Origin: Chloroflexota bacterium | GTDB taxonomy: Bacteria; Chloroflexota; UBA11872; VXOZ01 | Direction of reading: 5' to 3' | Assembly: GCA_022824225.1 (NCBI GenBank) | Contig: JAJEAH010000029.1 | Location: forward strand, 1-32,022 | DNA: 32,022 bases | In this document: in pieces, positions 3,597 to 7,064 of the stretch | Layout of the letters: each line of letters begins with the position of its first letter | Position numbering within the stretch: position 1 is the stretch's first letter | Translations under genes and position numbers: made by a program | The notes under the pieces: generated by a model | What the model saw: only the letters and a program-made list of their open reading frames with translations | What the model was told of the DNA's origin: nothing | Database searches by the model: none

Positions 3597-4295
3597 CTAA
3601 TCGACGACGACCGGAATGCGCCGGTCCAGTGTAATCTCCGCAGGCGACACCACGCATGTATATGCCAACAACTCTACCCCACAATCGTGAGCCTTGCGCA
3701 AGGCTGCGGCGAATTCCGGGTCGGTCCGTTGATTGGCGGCAACGCTGTGGGCATCGGCGCGCTGGACGACGAAGCAGACGACGGCCTGCGCGCCGCACTC
3801 TCGCACCCGCATAAGTTCGCAGAGGTGGCGGCGGCCTCGGGCCGTCGGCGCGTCGGGAAAGAGCGCGTGTCCCGCCTCCACCAATGTGACGGACTTCGTT
3901 TCCAGCCAGCACTGACCGGTCTCCCCGCTCAGCAGGAAGTCAAGGCGGCTTGCGCCAATCTTCCGCTCTTGTTCCCAGGAAGCATATTGGCTGAATTCCG
4001 GCAGCGCCCCCTGATCTAGGGCCTCGCGCACAAGTTGGTTCGGCAGCCGGGTATCGAGCGAGACCAACTCCTGCCCTTGCGCTACGAGCCAGAGCTGGTA
4101 GCCTGTCTTGCGGTGCTGGCCGGGCTTGGGTTCCAGCCAAACACGGGCGCCGGGCCGCAGGAGTTCCCGCAGGCGGCCGGGATCGGGCAGATGTGCGCGG
4201 ATGGGAGCGCCGGCGCCGGGAATCCGCACGAGACAGGTAAAGCGGTTGGGACGAGCGACGAAGCGCCCGTGGACAAGAGGGTGCGGGAGTTTCAA
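3597..4295 (-). CDS. sfsA: SfsA family DNA/RNA nuclease-like protein
   Basis: 232 residues, the usual SfsA length. SfsA has an N-terminal OB-fold and a PD-(D/E)xK nuclease-like domain; the E. coli protein was named for sugar fermentation stimulation and binds DNA, and its cellular role is still unsettled. The signature HLPDPGRLRELL is at 35-46. The nuclease-like motif is visible as D119 (ASRLDFLL) with E132 and K134 (WLETKSVTLVE), followed by FPDAPTARGRRHL. The TTG start at 4295 overlaps the stop of the preceding ADP-ribosylglycohydrolase-like gene by 4 bp (TTGA). There is no good Shine-Dalgarno sequence, so translational coupling is likely. It is the last gene of the minus-strand run. Confidence 0.9.
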   Translation of the reverse strand: MKLPHPLVHGRFVARPNRFTCLVRIPGAGAPIRAHLPDPGRLRELLRPGARVWLEPKPGQHRKTGYQLWLVAQGQELVSLDTRLPNQLVREALDQGALPEFSQYASWEQERKIGASRLDFLLSGETGQCWLETKSVTLVEAGHALFPDAPTARGRRHLCELMRVRECGAQAVVCFVVQRADAHSVAANQRTDPEFAAALRKAHDCGVELLAYTCVVSPAEITLDRRIPVVVD

Positions 4296-5203
4296 GAATC
4301 AGATTCGGCGAGCGCGCAGATCCGGTCGGCTAGCTCGACAAACGCGTCAACGTCTTCCAGGCGTTGCCACCACCGGTCGGGTATGTGGGAAAGGCCGTAG
4401 GCCGCGCCGGCCAACGCGCCGCAGACTGCCCCCGTGGCGCGGCTCGCGCCGCCCAAGTTCACGGCCTCGACCAGCGCTGATTCCGCGGACTCCGTGCGCA
4501 ACAGGCAGACGATGGCGGCTTCCAGGGCGTTGAATGCCAGCGTGGACGAATGGATGTAGGCAGTCGCTTCGAGCTGCGACAGGCGCTCCAAGACCGGCAT
4601 GGGCGCATCGTAGTCTTCCAAGTGGTCGATGATAAGTTTGAGGGATTCCTCGATGTTGTTGCCGGCGATCAACGCGGCAATGACGAGATTCAGCGTAACG
4701 GCCGCCCAACTCCACACGCGGTCGTAGTGTGTGAGCCGCGCGCTGCTATAGGTGGCGGCGATGTTGTGTTCAGGGTTGCCAGCGAACATGAGGCCCAGCG
4801 GCGCACAGCGGCCAACCACGTGGATGCCGGTTGTCTTGCCGCCGGACTCCCAAAACGTCAACGACGAGGCGTGTTCCCACATCATGCCGGTCGCGACTTT
4901 CGCGAGCGCGCGGTTGGTGACGTCTTGCGAGAGGACGCCTTGTGAACTGAACGACCACGCGACGAGGCGTTGCAGCGCATCTTCCGGATCGTACTCGCCG
5001 CACGCTACCAGACTCTCCGCCAAACACCGCGCCTGATTGGCGATCTCGCCGGCCCGAATGGGATCTGGCCCCCGCACGTCGCGCAGAACGCCGTAGCGAG
5101 CGCGAATGTCCCCGCGCTGCATATTCTCCGTGGCCGCGCCGAGACACTCGCCGACGGCAAGCCCCGCCAGTGTGCCTCGGTAGCGGTCGAGTTGCTCAAG
5201 CAT
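4292..5203 (-). CDS. ADP-ribosylglycohydrolase-fold protein, apparently inactive
   Basis: 303 residues with the all-helical ADP-ribosylglycohydrolase (ARH/DraG) fold. Family members remove ADP-ribose from proteins using two metal ions held by conserved acidic residues. The scaffold is clear: LAVGECLGAATE (15-26) sits where GDALGA..E is usual, GEIANQARCLAESL (52-65) where TDDT..A..L..SL is usual, ARLTHYDR (155-162), and NLGGASRATGAV...LAGAAYG (249-270) where GGDTDT is usual. In all three motifs the metal-binding Asp residues are replaced (D19 to E, DD to NQ, GGDTD to GGASR). Hydrolase activity is therefore doubtful; a binding or structural role is possible. No strong Shine-Dalgarno sequence precedes the ATG at 5203. 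It follows the archaemetzincin-like gene by 59 bp and overlaps sfsA. Confidence 0.8.
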   Translation of the reverse strand: MLEQLDRYRGTLAGLAVGECLGAATENMQRGDIRARYGVLRDVRGPDPIRAGEIANQARCLAESLVACGEYDPEDALQRLVAWSFSSQGVLSQDVTNRALAKVATGMMWEHASSLTFWESGGKTTGIHVVGRCAPLGLMFAGNPEHNIAATYSSARLTHYDRVWSWAAVTLNLVIAALIAGNNIEESLKLIIDHLEDYDAPMPVLERLSQLEATAYIHSSTLAFNALEAAIVCLLRTESAESALVEAVNLGGASRATGAVCGALAGAAYGLSHIPDRWWQRLEDVDAFVELADRICALAESDS

Positions 5204-5262: not shown

Positions 5263-5994
5263 CTAATTTACGGAGAAGTGCAAGCTGAATACGACCGAAC
5301 GCAACTCGTGCCGGCACTTCGAGCACAACGCCAGACCTGGATTTGCCGCGGCGGCAACCGACATCAAGTCATCGATGGACTGGGCCTCATACATGGTGCA
5401 CTTCGCGTCGCAAGGGCGCGCCCGATCGCCGGATGCCGTTCCCGGCGCATGTGCTGACAGATCGGCAGGTGGCAGTCGTTCGGGCAAGCCGACCAGGTGG
5501 CCGAAATTGTGCATTACCAAGCTGCGCAAGCACTTGAGGCGCAACTCACGGTCGGCGATATGACCCAGGTGGCGGACGGAAATCGCGGTGATGAGTTGGG
5601 GCTCGGTGCACGCGAATACCGAAGGGCAGGCGCCGTTTGATTCCTGGGTGTCGTTGCAGAGATCTGTATGCAGGAGGGCGAGCACGAGATGCGGTTCCGC
5701 ATGTTGCCACGGCTCGTAGCGTACGATCTCGAACAGCGTCGCCGCAGAGACTTGCCCCGTTTCCTGGTCCAAGCTTGATTCCCAGTACCAGCGAAATGAA
5801 TGATACGCATCCCAGCCAGCCTTGTCGTTCAGTACCCAGTTGCCGTACGGTCGCAGCAGAATGGGCGCAAGACCGATGTTTTGCTCCAACGCGACGCCTT
5901 GCAGAAACCGCAGGAACTCACGCATCGCGCTGATGGTCTCCTTGGCGTCCGCTTCGCTGACGCCCTCCGACCACACGATGGAAATCGGCTTCAT
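5263..5994 (-). CDS. Archaemetzincin-like (peptidase M54-like) protein, catalytic site altered
   Basis: 243 residues. The C-terminal half resembles archaemetzincins, which have HExxHxxGxxH followed by four structural zinc cysteines and a Met-turn. Here H162-N-F-G-H166-LVG is seen, then C195-x3-C199-x-M201 and C224-x2-C227. The catalytic Glu is Asn163 and the third zinc ligand position is Glu172 rather than His, with a longer insertion before the cysteines. The structural C4 site is kept while the catalytic site appears lost. The N-terminal half (about 1-110) is unfamiliar. The open frame extends upstream to 6201, but ATG at 5994 lies 2 bp after the stop of the DUF4432 gene and begins plausible protein (MKPISIVWSEG). 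Family assignment rests on motif order only. Confidence 0.6.
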   Translation of the reverse strand: MKPISIVWSEGVSEADAKETISAMREFLRFLQGVALEQNIGLAPILLRPYGNWVLNDKAGWDAYHSFRWYWESSLDQETGQVSAATLFEIVRYEPWQHAEPHLVLALLHTDLCNDTQESNGACPSVFACTEPQLITAISVRHLGHIADRELRLKCLRSLVMHNFGHLVGLPERLPPADLSAHAPGTASGDRARPCDAKCTMYEAQSIDDLMSVAAAANPGLALCSKCRHELRSVVFSLHFSVN

Positions 5995-5996
5995 GT

Positions 5997-7064
5997 CTAC
6001 GCATTCTGTGCCAGAGAGTCGATTGCGCGGGCGCCGTCCGCCACGCCGAACTCCAGATGAAACGTCTGCGTCTCCCCCGGAGCCAGAAAGCGCAACCGGC
6101 CTTCGCTGCGCTCGACGGCGCGCCCCAGCGGCAGGCAATTGCCCGGCTCCAAGCCAACGACGTATTCGTCGCTGTTCATCATCTTCCACTCCGTGAAGCA
6201 AGGGAGTTCCAGCGGGTCATAGCGGACGTAGAGGCCGATGCCGTCTCCCAGGCGCGGGTTGACGATGGCAGCCTGCACGCGGCCGTCAGCCCCCGGCTTC
6301 ATTGCATGGAAATAGACCCGCTCGGCGTAGGTGGGGTCGGGATCTTCGAAGGAGTCGTAGCTCTCGCAACCCTCCCGGGCCGCGTCATCTCGCGGCGTCA
6401 CGTTTTCCGTAGGCAGCACGAGGCGCGCATCGGGATGAACCAAGGGAAAACCGACATTTACATGGTAGAGCAGCATGAATGGGCTTGGGTTGCGCCCAAT
6501 GTTCTCCACGCTGTCTTCGACGTAAAACCGCGCTTCGCCGAGTCGCGCCCAAATGCAGCGCGTGAGCGCCAGGGTGTCGCCAAAGACTGTGCTCTCCGTC
6601 ATCTTGCCTTGCACGCGCATCACGTACTCGTCGCCTTGCCATTCATTGTCCACCAGGACATTGCGCGCGGCGGTATAGGAGATGCGGCCGTGTATGCCGA
6701 GGTCCTCGTCACCGTCGGGACCGGGAGCACCCAGGTACGTGAGCCCGCAGGTGGTGATGAGACCGCCAAAGAAACCGCGCAACCAGCCCACGCCCGGCGC
6801 CTCGAAATACGCACTGTGCACGTCGCCGGTGCGGGACCGCCAGGCGAGAGGGATGCCCTTGTACTCCGCGTGCGTAATGTCCAGCCCGCGCGTTGGCGAA
6901 ATCCACAGATTGAGCCCCGTACCCGTGCGCATTTCGGCGGCCAGCATGGCGTCTTCCGGGCCCTCCTCCCAGCGCAAGCGACGCGCGCCGCCCAGTTGGT
7001 CCATGTTGCCAACGCGGCTGAGGAGTTCGTCTCGCGTATAGGTTGTATCCCAGAGGGTTGGCAT
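5997..7064 (-). CDS. DUF4432 family, aldose 1-epimerase-like protein
   Basis: 355 residues of the galactose mutarotase-like beta-sandwich superfamily, DUF4432 branch. Features are GTGLNLWISPTRGLDI (about 48-63), which resembles the conserved N-terminal region of the branch, GFFGGLITTCGLTYLGAP, GIHGRISYT, LLYHVNVGFPL and VVGLEPGNCLPLGR near the C-terminus. Members are thought to bind or isomerise sugars or sugar acids, but the substrate of this branch is generally unknown. The ATG at 7064 directly follows the TGA of the YraN-family gene, so the two are very likely cotranscribed and coupled. The archaemetzincin-like gene starts 2 bp after its stop. Cytosolic; no signal peptide is visible. Confidence 0.8.
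   Translation of the reverse strand: MPTLWDTTYTRDELLSRVGNMDQLGGARRLRWEEGPEDAMLAAEMRTGTGLNLWISPTRGLDITHAEYKGIPLAWRSRTGDVHSAYFEAPGVGWLRGFFGGLITTCGLTYLGAPGPDGDEDLGIHGRISYTAARNVLVDNEWQGDEYVMRVQGKMTESTVFGDTLALTRCIWARLGEARFYVEDSVENIGRNPSPFMLLYHVNVGFPLVHPDARLVLPTENVTPRDDAAREGCESYDSFEDPDPTYAERVYFHAMKPGADGRVQAAIVNPRLGDGIGLYVRYDPLELPCFTEWKMMNSDEYVVGLEPGNCLPLGRAVERSEGRLRFLAPGETQTFHLEFGVADGARAIDSLAQNA

Follow-up and report, generated by a model that had tools for sequence, protein, structure and literature searches.

A gene on the minus strand of the window, i.e., the whole 32,022-nucleotide stretch of Chloroflexota DNA analyzed here, encodes a protein with the look of an archaemetzincin but HNxxH in place of HExxH, and raises the question of what such a protein does when its protease motif is gone. 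The earlier note on this locus, made from the sequence alone, had recognized in the 243-residue translation the motif order H-x3-H-x2-G, C-x3-C-x-M, C-x2-C of the M54 family and had proposed either loss of proteolysis with retention of the fold or a rewired metal site. The contig carrying the gene belongs to a 3.37-Mb assembly. Positions of the gene, its neighbors, and the relevant protein segments are collected in Table 1.

Table 1. Features of the locus and of the encoded protein, in window coordinates
Feature	Position	Strand	Remarks
CDS, archaemetzincin-like protein without the catalytic zinc motif	5263..5994	-	243 aa; ATG at 5994, stop at 5263 (ORF list and translation); ORF, 52-member family, dN/dS well below 1
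Upstream gene, DUF4432 (PF14486)	5997..7064	-	stop 2 bases ahead of the ATG of the family gene
Downstream gene, ADP-ribosylglycohydrolase (PF03747)	4292..5203	-	Pfam
Next gene after ADP-ribosylglycohydrolase, SfsA (PF03749)	3597..4295	-	Pfam
N-terminal part, residues 1-148	5551..5994	-	71-145 match the archaemetzincin N-terminal domain; 1-70 unaligned
EPWQxxxxHxD block, residues 94-104	5683..5715	-	lowest mean entropy of 15 blocks
Degenerate active-site helix, residues 162-172, HNFGHLVGLPE	5479..5511	-	place of HExxHxxGxxH in canonical enzymes
Genus-specific insert, residues 173-194	5413..5478	-	weakly constrained; alignment, pN/pS
First half of the Cys4 site and Met-turn Met, residues 195-201, CDAKCTM	5392..5412	-	
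Second half of the Cys4 site, residues 224-227, CSKC	5314..5325	-	
C-terminal Asn243, last residue	5266..5268	-	Asn in 49 of the 51 members reaching it, Ser in 2

Library models placed the window protein only loosely. No Pfam or NCBIfam model matched it above its cut-off; PF07998 (Pfam M54) did not match it at all, Pfam returned nothing of note, and NCBIfam NF033823 gave a weak match to this single sequence (E 1.9e-4, 21.4 bits versus a cut-off of 145). Among the 39 members of its family that were scanned, seven matched PF07998 at E≤1 (best E 0.0031) and 23 matched the NCBIfam archaemetzincin model at the same threshold (best 1.4e-10). Profile comparison was far more telling. As the canonical set, we used 15 HExxHxxGxxHC enzymes of other Chloroflexota, all of which match Pfam M54 at E≤1 and one of which has HELAHTWG, with a different Gly-His detail. 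The family profile aligned with the canonical profile over residues 71-235 with 98% probability (E 2.1e-13) and with the motif residues in register, which bears out the motif order recognized in the earlier note; with more family members included, the probability was 98.3% (E 1.9e-14). Halves compared alone with hhalign also matched, at residues 71-145 for the N-terminal pair (91.2%, E 9.9e-7) and with 96.9% (E 1.4e-10) for the C-terminal pair, versus 0.1% and 0.4% for crossed halves and maxima of 3.8%, 2.3%, and 5.6% in 50 column shuffles each of the whole, N-terminal, and C-terminal profiles. The N-terminal half had been suspected of being a new domain; the match of residues 71-145 to the archaemetzincin domain argues otherwise and leaves only about the first 70 residues unaligned. 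Searched against the PDB, the family profile hit the Archaeoglobus archaemetzincins 3zvs and 4axq first (E 1e-4). These comparisons indicate that the family is homologous to archaemetzincins at the level of the M54 superfamily, and on this sequence evidence the window protein would keep the metzincin fold. AlphaFold2, run on the window sequence with four close ones (five in total), returned only a low-confidence model (pLDDT 36.2, pTM 0.28).

The M54 archaemetzincins (AfAmzA, 3zvs/4a3w/4axq; MkAmzA, 2x7m) align with the family in the N-terminal domain from approximately residue 71, at the place of the active-site helix, at the Met-turn, and at the Cys4 site, whose M54 pattern CX3-4CXM...CXXC after the active site is present in the window protein. 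The family differs from them in that it lacks HExxHxxGxxH throughout, has about 70 rather than about 40 residues ahead of the first common block, adds a GxW/WY/EPWQ/HxD block and a C-terminal extension ending in Asn, and scores far under the curated cut-offs.

Relatives of the window protein were found in 27 of the 41 genomes of its class, and a single-sequence search retrieved the same 27. Of 400 genomes sampled evenly across the phylum, 33 were carriers, six of them outside that class; 199 genomes from the class of one of these six yielded 20 carriers, 19 of them new, and 29 genomes of another class yielded five, all counted before. The family totals 52 members including the window's, two of them fragments, all from Chloroflexota and spanning at least three class-level groups, and the search of viral contigs returned no relatives. 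HExxH occurs in none of the 52. The general-base position, read in the window protein as N163 (codon AAT) just as first described, is Glu in a single member of 51 (L082), where it is flanked by two Gln. The comparison with orthologues had been named beforehand as the one that could expose an artifact; with no HExxH orthologue among the 52 members, a local mutation or sequencing error is ruled out. In the phylogenetic tree, 40 family rows were split from the 15 canonical rows with an SH-aLRT of 100, in line with one loss of the catalytic site, although this tree of Chloroflexota rows does not prove a single origin.

It could be argued that a catalytic-type metal is still bound, by a rewired set made of H162, H166, and E172. 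All three residues stand in the window protein, and two members (L079 and L103) have His, His, and Asp at the three positions. This set is, however, inconstant even among the closest relatives: in the genus of the window (n=6), the helix reads HNFGH in three proteins and HNFGR in the other three, where H166 is replaced by Arg. Position 172 holds E, N, T, T, L, and T, i.e., it is non-acidic in five of six. Across the family, 20 of 51 members retain the two His, and only three, the window's included, combine them with a possible third ligand, so that 48 of 51 lack the set. The reading of Glu172 as the third zinc position therefore holds for its place in the alignment but not for a ligand role, as Glu is found there in the window protein alone among the 51 relatives with a residue at this position. 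Because the His/His/Glu set varies within the genus itself, the catalytic metal site is, judging from the alignment, dismantled rather than rewired, and we consider a rewired site very improbable. The family proteins would bind no catalytic zinc.

What the family has kept lies elsewhere. The four-Cys site, reported as intact in the window protein, is indeed present (C195-x3-C199-x-M201 and C224-x2-C227), with C199 and C224 in 51/51 members and C195 and C227 in 48/51, one fragment of the 52 being too short; at residue 201, 38 of the 51 have Met and 13 have Leu. In Methanopyrus AmzA and CarG, the Cys4 site is described as a structural zinc site whose loss destabilizes the protein (PMC3427221). 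It probably also binds a structural zinc in the family, holding the C-terminal domain together. Loss of proteolysis, which belongs to the first of the two outcomes originally proposed, is thus predicted for all relatives found, with the Cys4 site kept in nearly all. Three f109 members (L112, L113, and L115) have a gap at position 195 and CxxH for CxxC, with His at 227; the Cys4 site is therefore not absolute, and these proteins have a changed structural zinc site or none. The canonical HExxH enzymes L059, L062, and L066 of some Chloroflexota also lack the last Cys of CxxC, reading FCSAH, LCTRH, or FCPKH.

The most conserved segment of the family is N-terminal. Mean entropy was 1.13 bits for the EPWQxxxxHxD block (residues 94-106), 1.26 for C..C.M, 1.76 for the active-site helix, and 2.25 for the bulge/edge-strand region (residues 124-133). 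P95, W96, Q97, and H102 are found in 52/52 members, and E94 and D104 in 51/52. Among 31 representatives (80% clustering), W8, G51, W53, Y70, P95, W96, Q97, H102, L112, S139, and G165 are invariant, and Y64, W69, E94, and D104 occur in all but one. The window protein itself has Val at residue 104 (GTG, 5683-5685); a change from GAC or GAT to GTG takes two base changes, so that one sequencing error does not explain it. A retained peptide cleft was also considered and dropped as an argument: the strand that follows the edge strand is conserved (S139, 51/51), but the bulge/edge region is variable.

Such conservation may signal a new enzymatic or small-ligand site built from E94, Q97, H102, and D104 together with W53, Y64, W69, and Y70, which would make the protein a different kind of enzyme or sensor. 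The near invariance of the block, its position as the least variable of the 15, and the conserved C-terminal Asn all suit this idea, and the conserved polar residues E94, Q97, H102, and D104 would fit a catalytic or ligand site too. However, the window protein carries Val104 in that very site, the block is mostly aromatic and equally suited to packing or protein binding, and the Pfam and NCBIfam scans gave no convincing match to an enzyme family. We regard a new site of this kind as unlikely, if well short of negligible. The same tentative standing applies to a wider proposal, i.e., that the metzincin fold was protease-dead before several Chloroflexota classes diverged and carries a newly evolved N-terminal functional site (GxW, Y, WY, and EPWQxxxxHxD plus the C-terminal Asn) that would serve a different chemistry or ligand sensing rather than a passive scaffold.

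Selection on the family is strongly purifying. Median Nei-Gojobori dN/dS was 0.13 in the genus of the window (7 of 15 pairs usable) and 0.063 (15/15 pairs) and 0.069 (45/45 pairs) in two other genera. Between the window gene and its congeners, dS ranged from 1.5 to 2.6, with one value not computable; this is near silent-site saturation, and the window's own pairs are therefore less informative. Constraint is uneven along the protein: the insert at residues 173-194 changes fast and nearly neutrally (median pN/pS 0.84), versus 0.21 for residues 1-148.

Gene order also bears on whether the gene is maintained. DUF4432, the family gene, ADP-ribosylglycohydrolase, and SfsA follow one another in each of the five loci examined in the genus, and the gap of 2 bases between the DUF4432 stop and the ATG makes translational coupling likely. 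The wider neighborhood comparison covered 39 loci, one per member, out of the 52 members, and among them no adjacent gene was common to most families. Neighbors are DUF4432 and ADP-ribosylglycohydrolase in f1, and two genes without a Pfam match followed by arginyl-tRNA synthetase in f3. In f4, the family gene comes directly after an M17 aminopeptidase gene in 3/3 loci (L030, L086, and L087), with M17 assigned by Pfam in L086 only and by blast cluster in L030 and L087; in f42, a cyclophilin gene is the neighbor in 2/3 loci. In two f3 genomes (L089 and L031), a member of the DUF4432 blast cluster also lies no more than three genes away from the family gene, on the opposite strand; this may be chance.

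If the gene were a non-functional copy, decaying or mis-assembled, this would account for Val104 and Glu172, both unique to the window protein, and for the nearly neutral insert. It would not account for an intact full-length frame, for a dN/dS that stays well below 1 in each of three genera, for the gene order kept in the genus, or for the finding that 21 of the class's 24 best genomes carry the gene. This reading is largely refuted, and we give it hardly any weight.

Inactive relatives of proteases often act as decoys, and a review of inactive metallopeptidases notes that pseudoenzymes sometimes regulate active cousins (PMC11266112). The family protein might accordingly bind substrate without cutting it and so regulate an active archaemetzincin of the same cell. 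Genome content speaks against such a role: a canonical archaemetzincin above the NCBIfam cut-off was found in 16 of the 400 sampled genomes and in 0 of the 33 carriers among them, so that the protein is not serving an active paralogue, and the region that would hold the substrate (residues 124-133) is the variable bulge/edge-strand segment. The rate of 16/400 predicts only one or two such enzymes in 33 genomes, and 0/33 is therefore no sign of avoidance. Overall, a decoy role appears most improbable. In the class of the window, a single canonical archaemetzincin turned up (L066/L083, on G026:C342); it covers just the C-terminal part of the profile in a 135-aa open frame and is truncated or frameshifted. 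Frames of 417 to 500 aa in f25 (L069 and L072-L076) match the archaemetzincin model partially at 28 to 40 bits and perhaps represent another metzincin group.

The closest functional parallel is CarG of Myxococcus xanthus. The literature on it describes a protein without protease activity that binds two zincs and forms a tight complex with CarD, together with which it is encoded (PMC8156234), and that acts in transcription without binding DNA (PMC8156234, PMC9304148). Its motif is HQxxHxxExxHC, with three His kept (PMC8156234), and Cys-to-Ser changes in its Cys cluster abolished complementation (PMC3427221). Like CarG, the family is a bacterial non-proteolytic relative of the archaemetzincins with the Cys4 site kept; unlike CarG, it has lost the His set, and the window gene lies beside DUF4432 and ADP-ribosylglycohydrolase rather than CarD. 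NF033824 (Myxo_non_zincin, "non-proteolytic archaemetzincin-like protein"), which from its name and length is probably the model of CarG, scored 16 bits versus the 250 needed and matched only the C-terminal 38 residues of the window protein. CarD itself is disfavored as a partner, as the window genome has no CarD-sized PF02559 protein. Its sole PF02559 match lies within a 1167-aa frame, and across the genus the matching frames measure about 1160 aa, a size that fits Mfd, except for one of 666 aa at a contig edge.

Collectively, the evidence favors, as the somewhat better than even whole explanation, a non-proteolytic protein of the archaemetzincin superfamily that works as a Cys4-stabilized binding module. 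Its parts differ in strength. That the protein is a dead protease is highly probable from the family alignment, while a role as adaptor, argued by analogy with CarG, is plausible at slightly under even chances. The translation shows no hydrophobic N-terminal stretch, and the product is accordingly predicted to be cytoplasmic. There, it would act by binding instead of cutting, with the Cys4 zinc stabilizing the module and no catalytic zinc. The binding surface would most likely be the N-terminal block G51-x-W53, Y64, W69-Y70, E94-P-W-Q97, and H102-x-D104 rather than the old cleft, and the mode of action may be that of a CarG-like adaptor with a partner other than CarD.

Human AMZ1 and AMZ2, archaemetzincins like the relatives of the family, keep the HExxH that the family lacks. 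In openly licensed literature, we found no paper on the family of the window protein, and the review of inactive metallopeptidases has no mention of archaemetzincin, M54, or CarG (PMC11266112). Inactive archaemetzincins are nonetheless already known: besides CarG, human AMZ1 lacks the third His, and its activity has been doubted (PMC3427221). What is new in this family is that it is more thoroughly disarmed and has a new conserved N-terminal block. It thus represents a second case of a dead archaemetzincin besides the well-studied CarG, more fully disarmed and under strong selection, which raises the question of what use is made of the archaemetzincin fold without its catalytic zinc and provides a short list of residues with which to test it.
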